Positions 41,838 to 50,777 of a stretch of 64,000 nucleotides of DNA are shown here, one piece after another. The notes below the pieces were generated by a model, which saw only the letters and a program-made list of their open reading frames with translations, was not told the DNA's origin and did no database searches. The DNA comes from Mariniflexile sp. AS56 (GTDB lineage Bacteria; Bacteroidota; Bacteroidia; Flavobacteriales; Flavobacteriaceae), in the NCBI RefSeq assembly GCF_030552475.1, contig NZ_JAUPED010000008.1:1-64000 (forward strand), in the 5' to 3' direction. How positions within the stretch are numbered: position 1 is the first letter of the stretch; every line of letters starts with the position of its first letter. A program made the translations under genes and the position numbers.

Positions 41838-42812
41838 TTAATGATTTACATTTAATAAAAAATACTTCATAATATAATCTCCCATTTTTTCAGAAAAAGC
41901 CATTGATCCTTTTAAATTCAAATGAGATTTGTCATAAAAATTAGTTTTATCAAAAGACAGGCTATCTCTTAAAAAGTTAACGTAATAAATATTATTTTTA
42001 ATTGCTATTTCTGAAACAATACTATCTACAAATTTTCTTTGCTCTTTTTTATAATTATCCATTTCATAATATTGAGGAGACCAAACTAAACAAACTTCTA
42101 TTTTATTTAGTTTACAAAAGTGAATAATTTCATTTAATTCATCAATCCCTTTAAAATAAGCTATCGAATATGCTTTTTCAACTGCATTATCGGCAAGGAT
42201 ACGTTTTCTGAATATATTCCAATTATTTTCATCCCATGGCTTATCTTGTGGTTTATATCCATTATAAGAGTTCTTACAATTCGATTCACCTGCAATTAGT
42301 TTAATTTTTTTAATAATCTGCATTTCATAACCACGGTATTTATACATGGGTATTAATTTTTCATGATAAAAATCCTTATCAACTTCTTTTGCTACTTCTT
42401 GATATTCATGCTTATTTGAATAAGGTAAATATTGAAATTTTTCAAATAGATTTTTTGAAGTTCCTAAAACACTTTTATCTATATCAATTACTAATAACTT
42501 TGGTAATTTATTTCTATTAACATAAGCTTGCCATCTTATTTTTAAAATGTTTAGAGGCGTTCCACTTAATCCTAAATTATAAACTGAGTGCTTCGTTTTA
42601 TTTTCAATAATTATCGGGCTATAGTGTGCTTCGGCTCTTGAATTCCCTAAAATAACAATGTCTGATTTTATCTTTCCATTAAATACTTTATTCCAAGTAT
42701 TATCACATACACTTTCATTATCTAAAACCCTGTCCAAAACCAATTGAATTATAAATAATACGGAGTAAAACAATAAAAAGCCAACCACTATTTTAACAAG
42801 AAAATCTCTCAA
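41838..42812 (-). CDS. SGNH/AlgJ-like protein, partner of the MBOAT acyltransferase
   Basis: This 324-residue protein has one N-terminal membrane span (about residues 5-26, IVVGFLLFYSVLFIIQLVL) and a large domain outside the cytoplasm. The SGNH-type pattern is seen as VILGNSRAEAHYSP (Ser nucleophile candidate) and the C-terminal YDKSHLNLKGSMAFSEK (Asp-x-x-His). Such proteins pass an acyl group from an MBOAT channel protein to a polysaccharide, as AlgJ/AlgX do with AlgI. It overlaps the MBOAT gene by 4 bp. The DNA here is very AT-rich. Confidence 0.82.
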   Translation of the reverse strand: MRDFLVKIVVGFLLFYSVLFIIQLVLDRVLDNESVCDNTWNKVFNGKIKSDIVILGNSRAEAHYSPIIIENKTKHSVYNLGLSGTPLNILKIRWQAYVNRNKLPKLLVIDIDKSVLGTSKNLFEKFQYLPYSNKHEYQEVAKEVDKDFYHEKLIPMYKYRGYEMQIIKKIKLIAGESNCKNSYNGYKPQDKPWDENNWNIFRKRILADNAVEKAYSIAYFKGIDELNEIIHFCKLNKIEVCLVWSPQYYEMDNYKKEQRKFVDSIVSEIAIKNNIYYVNFLRDSLSFDKTNFYDKSHLNLKGSMAFSEKMGDYIMKYFLLNVNH

Positions 42813-44269
42813 AATTGAAAATAAATAAACGAATTAGCATTATTATTAGTTGATAAAATTATAGCTAGAATTCCAATTAGATAAATAAATGGTTTAAATA
42901 TTCTATCATGTAAAAAGTTATTATTATCCACAAAAACATGCGATTTATTTCTATAAATCCAATCAATAATAACAAAAAATATAAGATAAAAAAACAACAC
43001 TTTAATGCTATGACCACTTAATTGTAGATGACCTAAATCAAAAAAATTAGATTTTTTAAAGATATTATTAATATATATAAAAGCCATGGATATATTGTCT
43101 GACCTAAAAAACACCCAAGCAAAAACAGTTAGCGAAAAGGTTATAAGTATACCTAAAAAATCTAGCAGTCTGCTAAAAAATGAATTTTTAAATAAAACAA
43201 TTTTATTTAATTCCAAAGATTTAATAAAAAATGAAGGTAAATAATAAACTCCATTTAGTGCTCCCCAAAAAACAAAAGTCCAATTAGCACCATGCCAAAA
43301 CCCACTAACGATAAAAACAACAAAGATATTTCTAATTACAATAATTGTTTTTTTTCTTGAACCACCTAATGGCAAATATAGATAATCTCTAAACCAAGTT
43401 GATAACGATATATGCCATCGTCTCCAAAATTCAGGAATATTCTTGGAGAAATAGGGTGTTCTAAAATTAGTCATTAAATCAATACCAAAAAATTTAGAAA
43501 CACCTATTGCCATATCTGAATACCCAGAAAAATCTCCATAAATCTGAAAGGCAAAAAGAACTGCTCCAATTATTAAAACACTTCCCGAGCTATTTGAATA
43601 GTTAGCAAAAATGTCATTAACAAAAGGTGCACAAGAATCTGCTATAACAATTTTTTTAAACAGACCCCACAAAATAAGTTGAACACCTTCAATACCTTTA
43701 TTATATTCAAATTTCCGCTTTTTATAAAACTGAGGCAACAATTTTGTTGCTCGCTCAATTGGTCCAGCTACCAACTGAGGAAAAAAAGAAACAAATACTG
43801 AAAAAGCTATAAAATTCTTTACAGGTTCCAGTTTTTTTCTATAAACATCGATAGTATAACTCAATGTTTGAAACGTATAAAAACTAATTCCAACGGGTAA
43901 TATAATATGAAGCGAACTAGAACTAATTGGATGTCCGAAAAATGAAAATACCGTTATAAAATTATCTATAAAGAAATTGTAATATTTAAAGAAACCTAAT
44001 AATCCTAAATTAACAAATACACTTATTAGCAATAAAGCATTCCTTTTTCTTAAATGGGACTCTTTTGATAAGTAAATTCCAATAAAAAAATCGACAACAG
44101 TGCTAAACGATATTAAAAACAAAAATCGCCAATCCCACCAACCATAAAACACATAACTTGCTAGTAGCAATACAAGGTTTTGATGATTACAACTTTTTTT
44201 GGCAACAAACCAGTGAAGTATAAATACTATTGGTAAAAAAATCGCAAAATCAAGGGAATTAAAAAGCAT
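42809..44269 (-). CDS. MBOAT-family O-acyltransferase (AlgI-like)
   Basis: A 486-residue polytopic membrane acyltransferase. The MBOAT core is visible in FPQLVAGPIERATKLLPQF, the conserved PEFWRRWHISLSTWFRDYLYLPLGG and the catalytic-histidine segment VSGFWHGANWTFVFWG. AlgI-type proteins move acyl groups, usually acetyl, across the membrane for O-acylation of exopolysaccharide. The following SGNH gene would finish the transfer. It is more AT-rich than most neighbours, a possible sign of separate origin. Confidence 0.93.
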   Translation of the reverse strand: MLFNSLDFAIFLPIVFILHWFVAKKSCNHQNLVLLLASYVFYGWWDWRFLFLISFSTVVDFFIGIYLSKESHLRKRNALLLISVFVNLGLLGFFKYYNFFIDNFITVFSFFGHPISSSSLHIILPVGISFYTFQTLSYTIDVYRKKLEPVKNFIAFSVFVSFFPQLVAGPIERATKLLPQFYKKRKFEYNKGIEGVQLILWGLFKKIVIADSCAPFVNDIFANYSNSSGSVLIIGAVLFAFQIYGDFSGYSDMAIGVSKFFGIDLMTNFRTPYFSKNIPEFWRRWHISLSTWFRDYLYLPLGGSRKKTIIVIRNIFVVFIVSGFWHGANWTFVFWGALNGVYYLPSFFIKSLELNKIVLFKNSFFSRLLDFLGILITFSLTVFAWVFFRSDNISMAFIYINNIFKKSNFFDLGHLQLSGHSIKVLFFYLIFFVIIDWIYRNKSHVFVDNNNFLHDRIFKPFIYLIGILAIILSTNNNANSFIYFQF

Positions 44270-44299: not shown

Positions 44300-45694
44300 T
44301 TAGTTTAAAATTTTATTTAAAGATTCCCAAATATTTCCTGAAGCTTTTGTTGGTGTTTTACCAGCCACAACTTCAAACCACTTTAACCCTTCTTTTACAT
44401 TGGATAATTTAGCATCTAGAATTTGTTTTACTAAATTTTCTAAGTCATTTTTATCTGTACAAAAAACAGCGGCTTTATCACTTGGCATACTTCTAAAATG
44501 GACATATTTATAATTCTGACCAATATCCCGGATGCCTTTTTGTAACTGAGGTTGTTCATAATTATAATATATACAGGCCTTATTATGTGCTACAAAATCA
44601 AATACGGTAGATGAGCAAACATTAGTAACAAACTCACTATGTTCACACACATTATACAACATTCTAAAATCCTCCTTTGCTGGCAATACCTCGTTCCACA
44701 TGGTACCAACTTGTTTCCAAATAGGGTCTAAAACTTCAATAATGTCTTTGTTTGCCTCAATAACTGCATTGTACCTTTTCGTAAAATCTACTGGACATTT
44801 CCTATAAATGACACCTAAATTATATCCTTTAGAGTTTAAGCCTCGAACTGCATTTGTTAAGTCTTCTAAATAATATTGATCTAATGGTGAGGTTGTTTCA
44901 TCATCACCAGAATAACAGATATATTTTTTATTAATATCAAGTCCATACTGTTTAAAGAAAGCTTCTCTACTATCCTTTAAACTAGTATCAAAATGAGGTT
45001 CAAACTGGGGCGTACCTGTAACAAAAACTTGTTCAGCTTTCACAAATGGGTAATATTGTAGCACTTGTTGTTTCATTAAATCGCTCCAAACAAAATAATA
45101 ATCGGTTTCTACTACTTGCATCGCTTTTGGGACATTATCCCACGAATAAACAAAGGCTACCGTTGGTATTCCCAAATCTTTTGCTGCCAACAAAGCACTT
45201 ATAGATTGTGTTGAACGTTGCGTCGTGCAAAACACCAAATCTGGTTTATGCTCCAATAACTGCGCTTTACAATAGTTGTATTTAGATGTTGAACGCTCTA
45301 AATCATTTATCTTTTTTCGAATACGTTCAATGCCTTTTTCAGAATTATTTAAACCTATTAAAACTTTGGTAAAAACACTTTTGAATGTGTTTTTCAGTCC
45401 GTTGTAATTAAACGGAAACTTGTAAGTTGGATATACTTCATCATTAAACTTCTTTTCAGACACGTTTAATTCAATGCGCTTTCGAGCTCTAGAATATAAA
45501 GGCGTTAATGGATGAATTTTATGATTTTCAATTTTAACTTCATTAAAACCCAAATTATCTTTAAGTGAAAAAACAGTATTATTCCAATAATGGATGTCAT
45601 ACCCCATGTTTTCACCAATCTGTTTAAAATCTGTAAATGCAAAGTTTCTTAAACCAACACCATCAGGAAAAAAAACGAATACTTTCTTTTTCAT
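44300..45694 (-). CDS. unassigned GT-B-like protein beside the nonulosonic-acid genes
   Basis: A 464-residue soluble protein. The middle reads like the first half of a GT-B enzyme (KPDLVFCTTQRSTQSISALL, TVAFVYSWDNVPKAM, VFVTGTPQFEPHF). The C-terminal part has FVTNVCSSTVFDFVAHNKAC, similar in style to CDP-glycerol glycerophosphotransferase and capsule transferase donor sites. No named family fits with confidence. Its place two genes after the CMP-nonulosonate synthase, next to the pyruvyltransferase-family gene, makes a CMP-sugar-using transferase one possibility. This is inference only. Confidence 0.75.
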   Translation of the reverse strand: MKKKVFVFFPDGVGLRNFAFTDFKQIGENMGYDIHYWNNTVFSLKDNLGFNEVKIENHKIHPLTPLYSRARKRIELNVSEKKFNDEVYPTYKFPFNYNGLKNTFKSVFTKVLIGLNNSEKGIERIRKKINDLERSTSKYNYCKAQLLEHKPDLVFCTTQRSTQSISALLAAKDLGIPTVAFVYSWDNVPKAMQVVETDYYFVWSDLMKQQVLQYYPFVKAEQVFVTGTPQFEPHFDTSLKDSREAFFKQYGLDINKKYICYSGDDETTSPLDQYYLEDLTNAVRGLNSKGYNLGVIYRKCPVDFTKRYNAVIEANKDIIEVLDPIWKQVGTMWNEVLPAKEDFRMLYNVCEHSEFVTNVCSSTVFDFVAHNKACIYYNYEQPQLQKGIRDIGQNYKYVHFRSMPSDKAAVFCTDKNDLENLVKQILDAKLSNVKEGLKWFEVVAGKTPTKASGNIWESLNKILN

Positions 45695-45700
45695 ATTTTA

Positions 45701-46522
45701 TTAGGCTTTAAATGGACAAACCGACATTAAGTTAGAACACAATGATTCTATTTTACCACTTTTAGGAATGGATTCTACGCCAGTAAAAAGGCCAAGTAAC
45801 TCCTCTATATTCATTTTCTCTTCTTTCATTTCTAACTTATAATTAGGAATTTCAACCGATTCAAAATAATCTTGGTATTTTATATCGTCACCAAAAACAT
45901 CATTAGAAAATTTTTGCCAAACAGCAGGAACGCCATAAGCATGTGCCACAATAACACCATGTAATGATGATGATACGATTTTCTCACATCTCAAAAATTC
46001 ATTGGTGGTTTTTTCAACATCATTCGTCATTAAATCTATCAATAAAATAGATCGTTCATCCTTATAAAATGCTTCCACTTTTTTAAAATCTCTGTAATGC
46101 GGAATCACACCTATTTTAAATTCTTTATCTATTTCTGGATTGTAATACTTTGGCAATAACAAGGCTGGATCACCATACACCTCAGGAACGTTGTACCCTT
46201 GGTTTAATAAATGTTGCCGTGTTTGCGGGCCTCGAACTGCTAAAAACGTTGCGTTATTAACGGTGTATTCTTTTGATATAATCCCACTTCCCCAAACTAT
46301 ACATTTGCTATTTACGTGGGCTAAAATACTACCAATGGTTACATAAATGGGGGATAACAAATTGTGAATTGAAAACGTTGCGGGTTTCGCCCAAACCACT
46401 TTTTTTTGAGATATTTTTTCAACCAGATACCTCCCTAAAAGATCACCATAATTTTCTTTAGATTTTTTTTGGATTTTTATCTCATTCCACCAAAACAATC
46501 TAATTCTATTTGAAAATAACAT
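45701..46522 (-). CDS. polysaccharide pyruvyltransferase-family protein
   Basis: A 273-residue protein of the CsaB/WcaK family, which adds ketal-linked pyruvate to sugars or, in some members, acts as a glycosyltransferase. It has WGSGIISKEY, LAVRGPQTRQHLLNQGYN, VYGDPALLLPKYY, IGVIPHYRD and KIVSSSLHGVIVAHAYGVPAVW. The HG in SSLHG and the GDPA motif are the family marks. It is 2 bp from the NeuB-family gene, so modification of the nonulosonic acid or its neighbour is possible. Confidence 0.88.
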   Translation of the reverse strand: MLFSNRIRLFWWNEIKIQKKSKENYGDLLGRYLVEKISQKKVVWAKPATFSIHNLLSPIYVTIGSILAHVNSKCIVWGSGIISKEYTVNNATFLAVRGPQTRQHLLNQGYNVPEVYGDPALLLPKYYNPEIDKEFKIGVIPHYRDFKKVEAFYKDERSILLIDLMTNDVEKTTNEFLRCEKIVSSSLHGVIVAHAYGVPAVWQKFSNDVFGDDIKYQDYFESVEIPNYKLEMKEEKMNIEELLGLFTGVESIPKSGKIESLCSNLMSVCPFKA

Positions 46523-46524
46523 GC

Positions 46525-47400
46525 CTAGCCTTTTTGATTTTTTAATTTATCCCGTTGCACTTGTTCAATAGGTAAAATGTCTTGCGCTTTGTAGCTAAGC
46601 GCTTTATAAACCGCATTTAAATCTCTTGACAATTTACGTAACCCCATAGGCTCTAAAGAGGCTGCGTGATCGGTTCCTTTCCAAGTTCTATCAATTGTAT
46701 AATGACGTTCTATAATGTTTGCCCCTAGAGTATAGGCAGCAATATCAACAGCAATCCCCAAGTGATGGCCAGAAAAACCAATATGCTTTACCTCATCTTG
46801 ATATTTATCAATCAATAAATTAATATCTAAAAGGCACACATCTTCAAACGGTACTGGATACCCTGATGTGCAATTGTATAATACTAAATCTTTATTTCTG
46901 TTGAATTTTTTAAAAAACTGCACCAAATCTTCAATTTCATTTTTGGTAGTCATACCGGTTGAAATATGAAGCTCTCCTTGGTAATTTTCACACAACCACT
47001 CCAGCATTTTCATATTGTTATTACATGCAGAAGGAATTTTAATAAACTCAGGATTTAAAGACGCTATTTCTTTAGCCGAAGTAACATCCCAAACGGATGT
47101 AGAATAGGTAATTCCTATTTCTTCACAATATGATTTCAATTCTTGATGTTGATCTACATCAAACTCTAAATACTCGCGATGCTCCCCATAGGTGTCGCCA
47201 TAAGAATTAGCGGGATTCGGGTGCGGTTGGTTGTATTGTTCTTCAGTTAATAATTCTTTATTATTTCGCTTCTGAAACTTGACGGCATCAGCATTACAAA
47301 ATATTTTTGCTACTTTAATAAGTTCTTTAGCTATTTCCATATCACCTTTATGGTTGCAGCCAATTTCAGCAATGATGTAGGGTTTTTTATAAGTGTTCAT
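46525..47400 (-). CDS. neuB: NeuB-family nonulosonic acid synthase lacking the SAF domain
   Basis: A 291-residue TIM-barrel enzyme that condenses phosphoenolpyruvate with a hexosamine (or its 6-phosphate) to a sialic-acid-like sugar. Visible core motifs are IIAEIGCNHKGD, AVKFQKRN (Lys41), FIKIPSACNNN, LHISTGM, LYNCTSGYPVP, GFSGHHLG and IIERHYTIDRTWKGTDHAASLEP. It stops after the barrel, whereas the usual enzyme has about 60 more residues with a C-terminal antifreeze-like SAF domain that completes the partner's active site. The stop is clean and the next gene follows in 2 bp. Confidence 0.9.
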   Translation of the reverse strand: MNTYKKPYIIAEIGCNHKGDMEIAKELIKVAKIFCNADAVKFQKRNNKELLTEEQYNQPHPNPANSYGDTYGEHREYLEFDVDQHQELKSYCEEIGITYSTSVWDVTSAKEIASLNPEFIKIPSACNNNMKMLEWLCENYQGELHISTGMTTKNEIEDLVQFFKKFNRNKDLVLYNCTSGYPVPFEDVCLLDINLLIDKYQDEVKHIGFSGHHLGIAVDIAAYTLGANIIERHYTIDRTWKGTDHAASLEPMGLRKLSRDLNAVYKALSYKAQDILPIEQVQRDKLKNQKG

Positions 47401-47415
47401 GACTATTGGAGGCTA

Positions 47416-48570
47416 TTAAAACCGTTTATTATAATTAAAAATGAACTGACAAGCTTCACGAATAGCACCTGCTCCCGAATTTTTAGAAAGCACAATATCC
47501 GCATGCTGTTTCACAACATCAGTCGCATTATTTGGGGTTAATGACCATCCCACACTACAAATATTGGTTAAATCGTTAACATCATCACCTAAATAGGCTA
47601 CGTTGTTAAGTGATATATTTTGGTCCTTTAAAACATGCTGTAATAAACTATATTTATCTTTAACTCCTAAAAACACATGATTAATTTTTAGTTTCTGCAT
47701 ACGTTTTGCTACCAATTCAGACTGCTCCGACGTCATGATCATCACCTCAATATTAAATTGACGGAGTATTTCTAGTCCCATACCATCACGCATATCGAAA
47801 CCTTTCGTATGCTCGCCGTCTTTGGTATATGTAATAGTTCCATCGGTAAAAACACCGTCTACATCAAGAACAATATGAGTGATTTTCTTAGACTCTTTAG
47901 CTCGTTTTTGGCGTTCAATTAGTAACGTTTCAACAGCCATCCAATCGTTTTCCGAGTCAATTTCTAATAAAGTATCTTCTGGCATTTTAACTACCGCCAC
48001 TTTATCTCCTATTCTGTTTTTATGTTTCTGTAAAGCTTCCTTTGTTGTAGTATAAACGGCTCCATTTTCAACCAACAACCCCTCAAAATCTTGACGTCTA
48101 GGTCGTTCATGTGGATTATAATTAATAGCCGTTCCGTTTTCATTCCATAAGAAACGATGTGTATTTACGACCGTTAATGCCGAATCGAACCCCGTGTCAA
48201 GTTTCTCTAAACAGGTATTTATATCCTCTTTTTTAGTAAAAGGTGATGTGGCTTGAAGTAAACAAAACACATCAAAATCATAATTTATTTTATCACAGAA
48301 TTCGAGCATGGCGAATTCCGTTGAAGCCGTATCGGTAGCGCTTTCGTCACTACGTAAAACAGCTTTTACTTTAGGCGTCCAATAGTATTCTTTATTTATA
48401 AAATCAATAATATCAGAATCATCTGTATAAACAAACACGGTATCTAAATTTGAAAAAATAGCTTCCGCTAAAACCCAAGTAAACAAGGGTCTACCAACCA
48501 TTTTTCGTTTATTTTTATTAGGGATTCCTTTGGAATTTTTTCTAAGTGGTATAAAACCTATTTTTTTCAT
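47416..48570 (-). CDS. neuA: CMP-nonulosonate synthetase fused to a KdsC-like phosphatase
   Basis: A 384-residue bifunctional protein. Residues 1 to about 220 are an acylneuraminate cytidylyltransferase (IPLRKNSKGIPNKNKRKMVG, VFVYTDDSDII, RSDESATDTASTEFAML, LLQATSPFTKKEDI). Residues about 228-384 are a HAD phosphatase of the KdsC class, with the nucleophile motif LDVDGVFTDG, MTSEQSE and GDDVNDL, so the phosphatase looks intact. The fusion suggests that the synthase makes a 9-phosphate that is dephosphorylated and activated with CTP by one protein. The synthase gene follows after 15 bp. Confidence 0.92.
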   Translation of the reverse strand: MKKIGFIPLRKNSKGIPNKNKRKMVGRPLFTWVLAEAIFSNLDTVFVYTDDSDIIDFINKEYYWTPKVKAVLRSDESATDTASTEFAMLEFCDKINYDFDVFCLLQATSPFTKKEDINTCLEKLDTGFDSALTVVNTHRFLWNENGTAINYNPHERPRRQDFEGLLVENGAVYTTTKEALQKHKNRIGDKVAVVKMPEDTLLEIDSENDWMAVETLLIERQKRAKESKKITHIVLDVDGVFTDGTITYTKDGEHTKGFDMRDGMGLEILRQFNIEVMIMTSEQSELVAKRMQKLKINHVFLGVKDKYSLLQHVLKDQNISLNNVAYLGDDVNDLTNICSVGWSLTPNNATDVVKQHADIVLSKNSGAGAIREACQFIFNYNKRF

Positions 48571-48668: not shown

Positions 48669-49715
48669 TTATTTATTTTGTAAATACCAATCATACAACC
48701 TTTTTACACCATCTTGTAAATTTACAGTATGCTTCCAACCTAGAGTATTAATTTTAGAACAATCCGTTAACTTTCTAAAGGTGCCATCAGGTTTAGATAA
48801 ATTAAAAGTAAAATTGCCTTTATAACCAATAACACTCTTAATTAATTGTGCCATATTTTCTATAGAGATATCTTCACCTGTGCCAATATTGATATGAGTA
48901 TTCCTAATATCTTTAGAATTTGAAACACAAGCTTTGAAGTTCACCTCTTTCATAACAAACACACATGCTGCTGCCATATCTTCAGACCATAAAAACTCTC
49001 GCATTGGTTTGCCACTCCCCCAAATTTCAACACTTGTTTTAGTAATGCCATAGTTCGATAAAACACTATGAATTTCGTCAATATCAGGAATTCTCAAATC
49101 TGCAATCAACCCGTTAAAATTAGATTCCTGATATAACTTAGCCAAATGAATCTTCCTGATTAATGCAGGAAGCACATGTGATCTTTCTAAATCAAAATTA
49201 TCATTTGGACCATACAGATTTGTTGGCATAACTGATAAGAAATTAGTATCATACTGTATATTATAACTTTCGCATAGTTTTATACCTGCAATTTTAGCGA
49301 TTGCATAAGGTTCATTAGTATACTCCAATGGCCCTGTTAATAAATACTCTTCCTTAATGGGCTGTTGGCAGTCTTTAGGATAAATACAGGTACTTCCTAA
49401 AAAAAGTAGTTTCTTAACTTTGTGAATATGACTTAGATGAATTACATGATTTTGAATCATTAAATTTTCATAAATAAAAGCCCCCCTTCTAATATTGTTA
49501 TCTAAAATACCTCCAACTTTTGCAGCTGCCAAAAACACAAATTCTGGTTGTTCCTTTTCAAAAAAATCAGCAACAGCATTGTAATCCATTAAATTTAAGT
49601 CCGCCCTATTTCTTACAACAATATTTAAATAACCTTCTCTATTCAAAGTCTTTAAAATAGCACTTCCAACCAAACCATTATGACCGGCCACAAATATTTT
49701 GGCATTTAAGTCCAT
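48669..49715 (-). CDS. fcl: GDP-L-fucose synthase
   Basis: This 348-residue short-chain epimerase/reductase turns GDP-4-keto-6-deoxymannose into GDP-L-fucose. It has the Rossmann motif IFVAGHNGLVGSAIL, the segment LFLGSTCIYPKDCQQPIKEE with the catalytic Ser, and the YAIAKIAG (Tyr-x3-Lys) pair. GPNDNFDLERSHVLPALI and GSGKPMREFLWSEDMA also fit the family. It follows gmd by 3 bp. The pair lies between the two 30-bp repeats. Confidence 0.95.
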   Translation of the reverse strand: MDLNAKIFVAGHNGLVGSAILKTLNREGYLNIVVRNRADLNLMDYNAVADFFEKEQPEFVFLAAAKVGGILDNNIRRGAFIYENLMIQNHVIHLSHIHKVKKLLFLGSTCIYPKDCQQPIKEEYLLTGPLEYTNEPYAIAKIAGIKLCESYNIQYDTNFLSVMPTNLYGPNDNFDLERSHVLPALIRKIHLAKLYQESNFNGLIADLRIPDIDEIHSVLSNYGITKTSVEIWGSGKPMREFLWSEDMAAACVFVMKEVNFKACVSNSKDIRNTHINIGTGEDISIENMAQLIKSVIGYKGNFTFNLSKPDGTFRKLTDCSKINTLGWKHTVNLQDGVKRLYDWYLQNK

Positions 49716-49718
49716 AAA

Positions 49719-50777
49719 CTAAGCTTTATTTAATACGTGTTTTAAGTCGTGATTCATCATAATCTTAACCAACTCCTTAAACGATGTTTTTCGTGGATTC
49801 CAGCCTAAATTGGTTTTTGCCTTTGTTGGGTCTCCCAAAAGCGTTTCTACTTCCGCCAAGCGGTAATAATTTGAATCTATTTCAATCAATGTTTTACCCG
49901 TTTTATTACATAAGCCTTTTTCATCTGCCCCTTGGCCTTGCCACTCTATAATAATATCAGCTTCCTTAAAAGCGAGTTCACAAAACGTCCTTACCGAATG
50001 TTGCTCTCCTGTACCTATAACATAATCTTCAGGAATGTCTTGTTGCAGCATCAACCACATACACTCAACATAATCTTTGGCATATCCCCAATCTCTTTTA
50101 GCATCCAAGTTTCCTAAATATAATTTATCTTGAATACCATGAGCTATTCTTGCTGCTGCTAATGTGATTTTTCTGGTAACAAAAGTTTCACCTCTGCGCT
50201 CTGACTCATGATTAAACAAAATACCATTAACAGCATACATCCCGTAAGATTCTCTATAGTTTTTAGTAATCCAGAAAGCGTATAATTTGGCAACTCCGTA
50301 AGGAGAACGCGGATAAAATGGTGTCGTTTCCGTTTGAGGTGTCTCTTGAACTTTACCGAATAATTCGGATGTTGATGCTTGATATATTCTTGTTTTATGT
50401 GTTAAACCACAAATCCGAATAGCTTCTAAAATTTTTAAAGTGCCAACACCATCAGTTTCTGCCGTATATTCTGGCATATCAAAAGAAACTTTGACATGCG
50501 ATTGAGCAGCAAGATTATATATCTCGTCTGGTTGTATTTCTTGAACTAAGCGAATAAGATTCGAACCATCTGTCATATCTCCATAATGCAATTTTATATT
50601 TTGCTTTTTATGAATATCCTTAAGAACTTTATCTATATATAAATGTTCAATTCGCTCGGTATTAAACGTAGAACTTCGTCTAATAATACCATGCACTATA
50701 TACCCCTTATCAAGTAAAAATTCTGCTAAATATGAACCATCTTGTCCATTTACACCTGTAATTAAGGCTATTTTCAT
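49719..50777 (-). CDS. gmd: GDP-mannose 4,6-dehydratase
   Basis: First step from GDP-mannose to GDP-L-fucose, a 352-residue short-chain dehydratase. It has the motif [19 protein letters not shown], the GIIRRSS segment and [20 protein letters not shown] with the active-site residues. The [12 protein letters not shown] (Tyr-x3-Lys) and [16 protein letters not shown] stretches are nearly invariant in the family. About 200 bp of non-coding DNA lies upstream, including one 30-bp repeat, so it may have its own promoter. Confidence 0.96.

Follow-up and report, generated by a model that had tools for sequence, protein, structure and literature searches.

Locus

The DNA analyzed here, hereafter the window, comprises the first 64,000 nucleotides of contig NZ_JAUPED010000008.1 of Mariniflexile sp. 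AS56 (Flavobacteriaceae; assembly GCF_030552475.1). Two neighboring minus-strand genes within it encode a NeuB-family synthase that ends without the C-terminal SAF (antifreeze-like) domain and, upstream of it (47416-48570), a protein of 384 amino acids in which a NeuA-type cytidylyltransferase (CTP_transf_3 at residues 5-175) is fused to a KdsC-like HAD phosphatase (residues 226-381, approximately). Both genes belong to a long polysaccharide cluster on the minus strand, in which Gmd/Fcl-like genes lie upstream of them and glycosyltransferase-like genes flank them on either side (Table 1), and are considered here as a candidate route to an activated nonulosonic acid.

Table 1. Coordinates of the synthase, its fused partner, the residues discussed and the neighboring genes in the window
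Feature	Position	Strand	Basis or remark
GT-B-fold protein, candidate transferase of the CMP-activated product	44300..45694	-	linkage and fold
Gene resembling polysaccharide pyruvyl transferases, flanked by NeuB and the GT-B gene	45701..46522	-	PF04230, 5.7e-18
SAF-less NeuB-family synthase (proposed Kdn-9-phosphate synthase)	46525..47400	-	291 amino acids; Pfam NeuB 7.4e-69, SAF unmatched
Lys44-Arg45 codons, signature of the phosphatase-linked NeuB branch	47266..47271	-	Thr56-His57 in N. meningitidis NeuB
KdsC-like HAD phosphatase domain (residues 220-384), proposed Kdn-9-phosphate phosphatase	47416..47913	-	TIGR01670, 137.3 bits
Asp236-Val237-Asp238 codons, HAD nucleophile motif	47857..47865	-	fusion gene
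NeuA-type cytidylyltransferase domain (residues 1-219), proposed CMP-Kdn synthetase	47914..48570	-	best PDB match 9t4z 'PpNeuA', 2.6e-45
GDP-L-fucose synthase-like gene (Fcl)	48669..49715	-	NF047922, 1.2e-129; 432 bits, below the cut-off of 500
GDP-mannose 4,6-dehydratase-like gene (Gmd)	49719..50777	-	reading of the sequence, not a hidden Markov model (HMM)

The synthase and its fused partner

The Pfam NeuB domain (PF03102) covers residues 27-271 of the synthase with 232.3 bits (cut-off 22.1) and the same scan gave no SAF match, so that the open reading frame (ORF) is, as the initial annotation had described it, a 291-residue TIM barrel lacking SAF. The AlphaFold2 model (mean predicted local distance difference test score, pLDDT, 95.1) shows the barrel followed by a C-terminal helix at 277-290, toward the end of which the confidence drops; its best fold matches are 6ncs (Z 34.7) and the NeuB of Neisseria meningitidis (Z 34.1). 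Against TIGR03569, the equivalog model of N-acetylneuraminate synthase, the protein scores 205.6 bits, below the cut-off of 399.65, and the C-terminal SAF domain with Arg314 that characterizes such a synthase is missing.

Thirteen ligand residues of the N. meningitidis enzyme are given in an excerpt of PMC6795526. By alignment, eight of them are identical in the window protein (E25, Q55, N74, K129, Y186, S213, H215 and E234) and three are altered (T110S, F112W and N184S), F288 falls outside the alignment and R314 has gone along with SAF; in addition, H236 and D247 are kept and E134 is replaced by Cys. The earlier statement that the core residues are intact thus holds for most of them and fails at these substitutions. 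Across the SAF-less family, 11 counted ligand positions are uniform in 135 of 135 members (134 at one position), and ten of the 11 match the N. meningitidis NeuB. Loss of SAF and replacement of Glu134 could be taken to mean that the synthase is no longer catalytic; this uniformity, together with identities of up to 92% across genera, makes such a loss of function very improbable.

The catalytic residues of the HAD domain are in place in the fusion protein (D236-V-D238, T280, the motif lysine and a GDD near 328), in agreement with the intact DxD motif annotated initially, and the domain exceeds the 106.95-bit cut-off of TIGR01670 and hence belongs to the KdsC/YrbI subfamily. A cytidylyltransferase followed by a KdsC-like HAD in a single chain is the layout of CMAS-like fusions. 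All 109 fusions scored by alignment beside a SAF-less NeuB retain the nucleophile Asp. The fusion at locus L075 (L075:7115-8338) has Gly in place of this Asp, and its phosphatase is therefore probably dead.

Absence of the SAF domain across the family

The next gene starts 2 bp past the end of NeuB, and 15 bp separate NeuB from the fusion gene. When the 400 bases that follow NeuB were translated in three frames, only the next gene stood in frame and inspection by eye revealed no SAF-like stretch. A SAF search of the strain's own genome gave two matches, each at the N terminus of a protein of 550-553 amino acids that looks like an altronate dehydratase (judged by reading the sequence, not by HMM), and thus no free-standing SAF protein, for which a search had been proposed; therefore, of the two initial options, that the SAF function is replaced or is not needed, the second fits better.

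This form of NeuB, at 65-100% identity, is present in 47 of 299 genomes of the same family, that of the window included, with the next best match at 42%, and its identity reaches 92% between genomes of different genera; since so many genomes of the family carry the SAF-less form at 65% identity or more, chance and assembly error are excluded. Regions were taken from 44 of the 46 same-family relatives that carry it. A scan of GTDB contigs revealed at least 575 relatives of the window protein, of which the best 80 (64-92% identity, many from metagenome-assembled genomes) were collected and 78 counted, two loci lacking a complete NeuB ORF; the names among these best 80 relatives are of Bacteroidota, Bacillota, Spirochaetes, Verrucomicrobia, Planctomycetota, Bdellovibrionota and Proteobacteria. 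The C-terminal end lies at most three residues from that of the window protein in all 52 whole-genome family members (the window counted) and at most 11 residues from it in all 78 from GTDB contigs.

A frameshift hiding the domain, which the initial annotation had already discounted from the position of the next gene, is ruled out by these data: nothing SAF-like follows downstream, and all 130 family members, that is, the window protein and 129 relatives, stop within 11 residues of the same point. With the genome's two SAF matches confined to altronate dehydratase-like proteins, practically no weight remains for a frameshift or an error in the assembly as the reason for the missing SAF, or for its supply by a different protein. 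Judged from the sequences, the SAF-less NeuB is a widespread subfamily of bacteria and viral contigs without the cap domain.

Linkage to NeuA and the phosphatase

Within four ORFs of the SAF-less NeuB, NeuA is encoded in 52 of 52 loci of the whole-genome set and a phosphatase in 49, the two being fused in 48 and separate genes in one; the other three have NeuA alone in this range, and in one of them (L125) the phosphatase lies five ORFs from NeuB. In the GTDB set, the fusion is found over the same range in 61 of 78 loci and a phosphatase in 68 overall, the remainder comprising six loci with separate genes, one with the phosphatase only, two with NeuA only and eight with neither; six of the ten loci lacking a phosphatase lie near a contig end, with few ORFs on one side. 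Gene order varies by clade, with the fusion first in the clade of the window and NeuB first in most others, and the link between the two genes therefore exceeds a single inherited operon.

A Lys-Arg signature and the SAF arginine

The Lys-Arg pair at positions 44-45 follows a conserved Gln (or Thr), and in the N. meningitidis NeuB this position is beside the ligand residue Gln55. We use the pair as the signature of putative Kdn-9-phosphate synthases; the signature, which the window protein carries in full (K44, R45), is defined in the present work and not taken from the literature. Its linkage was compared on NeuB-like ORFs from loci not picked by motif, and the motif counts omit ORFs gapped at the motif. 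Outside the SAF-less family, a KdsC-like phosphatase is encoded within four ORFs of 18 of 18 NeuB-like ORFs with Lys-Arg compared with 4 of 35 without it (Fisher p 1e-10); when four loci fetched via the phosphatase are left out, the former count becomes 14 of 14. The four phosphatase-linked proteins without the pair are relatives of 554-559 amino acids that adjoin a Lys-Arg synthase. These NeuB-related proteins, which have a C-terminal part of about 290 amino acids, stand beside SAF-bearing Lys-Arg synthases at L108:8804-10483, L110:4341-6017, L316:2025 and L319:9256. Several other residues split as Lys-Arg does (Tyr71, Gly72, His74, Arg75, Leu78, Lys241, Thr243, Gly253 and Arg259), as compared in sequences that were gathered partly via the peptide pattern KFQKR. 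Lys44-Arg45, with Tyr71, His74, Arg75 and Lys241, would serve the phosphate of the sugar substrate.

According to an excerpt of PMC6795526, Arg314 is the sole SAF residue that directly reaches the active site of the N. meningitidis NeuB, where it helps to position the N-acetyl group of N-acetylmannosamine (ManNAc), and the R314K enzyme is active while R314A is inactive. The position, verified in the sequence of this NeuB (KRPGNG), reads Ser-Pro in all 20 of the SAF-bearing enzymes that have Lys-Arg; among SAF-bearing enzymes without the pair, Arg-Pro or Lys-Pro is found in 39 of 44 and Ser-Pro in none of the 44 (counts made by eye from a listing in which some viral rows are near-copies). SAF thus seemingly stopped contributing before it was lost: the phosphate branch appears to have dispensed with the acetyl-reading residue at a stage when the domain was still present.

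A quick tree was built from 144 of 275 rows, the paralogues of 554-559 amino acids, rows with more than 60 gaps and any row sharing 80% identity or more with a retained one having been removed; it has supports from the Shimodaira-Hasegawa-like approximate likelihood ratio test (SH-aLRT), without bootstrap, is rooted only at the midpoint and contains several long branches. The enzymes without Lys-Arg form one side of a branch with SH-aLRT support of 88. On this tree the absence of SAF requires two changes, the SAF-less rows falling into the clade of the window (75 rows, support 99), with three SAF-bearing viral sequences as its sister, and a clade of viral contigs and L075 (21 rows, support 99); a single loss may be compatible with the branches starred in the tree.

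The proposed pathway

From the observed gene structure, conservation, linkage, residue signatures and phylogeny we infer, with a probability of about 0.75, that the pair of genes supplies a surface glycan with CMP-Kdn, formed via Kdn-9-phosphate, SAF being dispensable as mannose-6-phosphate offers no acetyl group. In this scheme, NeuB would join mannose-6-phosphate and phosphoenolpyruvate into Kdn-9-phosphate, from which the HAD domain of the fusion would cleave the 9-phosphate; the NeuA domain would convert Kdn and CTP to CMP-Kdn, and another enzyme of the cluster, most likely the GT-B-fold protein, would act as the glycosyltransferase for Kdn. The synthase could work without SAF because the acetyl group held by Arg314, the only known direct contribution of that domain, has no counterpart in mannose-6-phosphate. 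The route through a 9-phosphate intermediate, suggested in the initial annotation, is supported by the phosphatase, which is fused or near in 49 of 52 and 68 of 78 loci, by the Lys44-Arg45 signature, common to this family and to SAF-bearing synthases beside BT1713-like phosphatases, and by the genome, in which NeuC and NanE were not found.

Which sugar acid

The nearest solved relatives of the NeuA domain are 9t4z 'PpNeuA' (158 bits), 1qwj (97 bits, 1.5e-26) and 1eyr (41 bits), the second and third being synthetases of CMP-N-acetylneuraminate (CMP-Neu5Ac). We take PpNeuA to be the CMP-Kdn synthetase of Prymnesium parvum, judging by its name and by its length of 251 amino acids, the latter in agreement with the 233-residue tagged construct of PMC6200933. 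In an excerpt of that paper, this synthetase does not use Neu5Ac, and mannose-6-phosphate is the sole substrate used by the P. parvum synthase among seven sugars.

The only Epimerase_2 protein of the genome is WecB (489 bits with the WecB model, cut-off 210; 93 bits with the NeuC model, cut-off 236), consistent with the absence of NeuC near the pair noted initially, and no NanE was found in the genome at E 0.001. Within five ORFs, a NeuC-type gene occurs in none of 131 SAF-less rows (genomes and GTDB), L114 having a WecB-type gene, against 11 of 31 rows, from 10 loci, in the branch without Lys-Arg; these neighbors were scored by BLAST directly against WecB of the genome, a search that may overlook distant epimerases. 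A profile-based count, with a match in 26 of 52 whole-genome rows, was discarded, the profile having apparently drawn in glycosyltransferases. Mannose-6-phosphate should be at hand, given the Gmd/Fcl route.

The same phosphorylated route could start from ManNAc-6-phosphate and yield CMP-Neu5Ac, as in vertebrates (NANS, phosphatase and CMAS). The chemistry and the types of partner would be the same, the second-best solved relative of the NeuA domain, 1qwj, makes CMP-Neu5Ac, and the NeuA-HAD fusion has the layout of vertebrate CMAS, both 1qwj and 3ewi being matched. We nevertheless consider this route unlikely. With WecB only and NanE not found, a source of ManNAc-6-phosphate is not evident (ManNAc kinases were not searched for specifically, and a search of the genome for PfkB-type kinases, with seven matches, was too general to be informative); moreover, the SAF arginine is absent, with Ser at its position in the SAF-bearing enzymes of the same branch, and the NeuA domain is nearer to an enzyme taken as a synthetase that rejects Neu5Ac.

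The phosphatase models point in the same direction in part of the family. NF058599, the Kdn-9-phosphate phosphatase model, gives the best E-value for the window HAD domain, and its cut-off of 180 bits is passed by some relatives whose NeuB is 66-67% identical: a fusion in G383 (192.7 bits), a separate gene in G479 (185.2) and a fusion in G364 (182). The G383 fusion, which is that of locus L071, scored 190.4 bits with NF058599 in a second scan, and its nearest solved chain is 3e81, which we take to be BT1713. Of the two intermediates named in the initial annotation, Neu5Ac-9-phosphate and Kdn-9-phosphate, the latter is favored by the Ser at the SAF arginine site, the proximity of NeuA to PpNeuA and these phosphatases, although the phosphatase domain in the window itself stays below the cut-off.

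Glu56 and Arg64 (BT1713 numbering) are present in 116 of 116 scored phosphatases beside the SAF-less family, and the genome's own KdsC-like protein has Gly at position 56. They were abandoned as a proof that these phosphatases are Kdn-specific, since position 56 is commonly Glu or Asp in Bacteroidota HADs of the group; Glu56 separates the phosphatases of the family from the KdsC-like protein, yet for this reason does not prove Kdn.

A 9-phosphate of a different nonulosonic acid might also be formed from a modified hexose-6-phosphate, Kdn being a mere side product. Genes resembling Gfo/Idh and short-chain dehydrogenases (named by eye) lie between or beside NeuA and the phosphatase at L074:5369-7144, L125:9122-10913 and L075:5273-7121, and may modify the sugar acid; the altered ligand residues (T110S, F112W, N184S and E134C) would also suit such a product. 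In the window and its clade the fusion gene and NeuB mostly adjoin, with nothing oxidoreductase-like between them, and we regard this alternative as distinctly improbable.

Several points weigh against a Kdn pathway as proposed. The viral and GTDB sets were gathered partly with the KFQKR pattern, and therefore their Lys-Arg counts are biased and the association rests on the remaining loci. The Lys-Arg branch also holds SAF-bearing enzymes, so that the chemistry does not require the loss of SAF. The three substitutions among the ligand residues and the change of Glu134 to Cys could mean another substrate or mechanism. On viral contigs, NeuA and the phosphatase are both in range for 12 of 80 SAF-less rows, and the pathway is therefore often incomplete nearby. 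The NF058599 scores of the window HAD domain (142.6) and of the phosphatases in G502 (177) and G465 (176.2), which have a NeuB of this family, fall below 180. Finally, when the 30 best NF058599 loci in Bacteroidota are compared, 29 have Glu or Asp at position 56, including 17 of the 18 weakest (L089-L106).

Comparison with known systems

The Kdn pathway of Bacteroides thetaiotaomicron likewise takes a 9-phosphate route from mannose-6-phosphate, with the BT1714 synthase, a Kdn-9-phosphate phosphatase and a CMP-Kdn synthetase (Q8A712, Q8A711 and Q8A710; excerpt of PMC6200933). Synthases beside BT1713-like phosphatases share the Lys-Arg signature (as KLTKR), but are 344-354 amino acids long and 33-38% identical to the window NeuB, carry SAF (by Pfam in L107 and L110, by length in the others) and have the phosphatase as a separate gene. 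Two loci, L076:6870-8615 and L111:6847-8640, have single ORFs of 581-597 amino acids adjoining a BT1713-like phosphatase, and a domain scan of that in L076 found cytidylyltransferase, NeuB and SAF in one chain.

The enzymes of P. parvum, to which the nearest solved relative of the NeuA domain is assigned, are strict for mannose-6-phosphate and for Kdn over Neu5Ac (excerpt of PMC6200933), but they are separate eukaryotic proteins. The N. meningitidis NeuB (1xuu and 2wqp; R314K 4ipj, R314A 4ipi) shares the TIM barrel (Z 34) and most ligand residues with the window protein, and differs in having its own SAF with Arg314, in using unphosphorylated ManNAc, in Thr-His for Lys-Arg and in its 26% identity. 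The best fold match is the NeuB of Leptospira borgpetersenii (6ncs), a solved chain of 290 amino acids that ends soon after the barrel and is apparently SAF-less; however, it is 31% identical and has Ala-Tyr for Lys-Arg. In vertebrates, NANS is a synthase of the 9-phosphate type with a SAF-like domain, and the HAD domain of CMAS is not known to have phosphatase activity, in contrast to the fusions beside the SAF-less NeuB with their conserved nucleophile.

Neighboring genes and a candidate transferase

Among loci whose NeuB is 74% identical or more, 57 of 72 have the GT-B gene no more than four ORFs from NeuB, compared with 2 of 63 at 60-74%; for the pyruvyl transferase-like gene, the count in the former group is 25 of 72. 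The model of the GT-B protein (mean pLDDT 86.6) best matches UDP-GlcNAc 2-epimerases (Z 24.9, root-mean-square deviation 3.5, 330 residues aligned), followed by glycosyltransferases. The protein was considered as a hidden NeuC and rejected as such: although the fold matches include NeuC (Z about 24, 10-15% identity), the probability in a profile comparison with WecB, made with a low-diversity alignment, is 0.6%. Its sole NCBIfam match, to the glycosyltransferase domain model NF046086, is under the cut-off, and no PDB sequence matched up to E 1. A shared fold shows no function, and from its linkage the protein is best seen as a putative glycosyltransferase, the leading candidate for the enzyme that would transfer Kdn.

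An MBOAT acyltransferase and an SGNH/DUF1574-like partner are encoded at 41838-44269 of the window, and several relatives have the same pair on one side or the other of their NeuA/NeuB genes.

Viral loci

Seven large viral contigs of 113-548 kb (L234, L235, L236, L239, L240, L244 and L265) carry a SAF-less NeuB, 49-55% identical to that of the window, accompanied nearby by separate genes for a NeuA-like protein, a KdsC-like HAD or both, and would thus hold a virus-borne pathway of the same type. Most of the viral contigs L254-L305 carry a second clade of SAF-less Lys-Arg NeuB proteins, about 273-285 amino acids long and 37-42% identical; some of these loci also have a SAF-bearing NeuB of the Thr-Tyr type.

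Implications

Neither a SAF-less, phosphatase-linked NeuB subfamily nor the Arg-to-Ser rule was found in the titles and abstract starts of the open-licence literature, most subscription papers lying outside it; the parts are of known kinds, and their combination is new. More speculatively, and with the odds somewhat against so broad a reading, Kdn-9-phosphate synthases spread across phyla and viruses may show that SAF is a reader of the N-acyl group, its Arg first replaced by Ser and the domain then dropped at least twice, the fusion being the living counterpart of vertebrate CMAS with its relic HAD and the GT-B protein a new kind of Kdn transferase.

To our knowledge, Kdn has so far been reported for few bacteria. 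If the proposed pathway is correct, Kdn would be a common surface sugar of Bacteroidota that is also present in several further phyla, and two residues, Lys44-Arg45, together with a single SAF position (Arg/Lys against Ser), would tell which branch of the pathway an enzyme belongs to. The role of SAF would then be directly testable with natural enzymes that have or lack the domain and substrates that have or lack the N-acetyl group.

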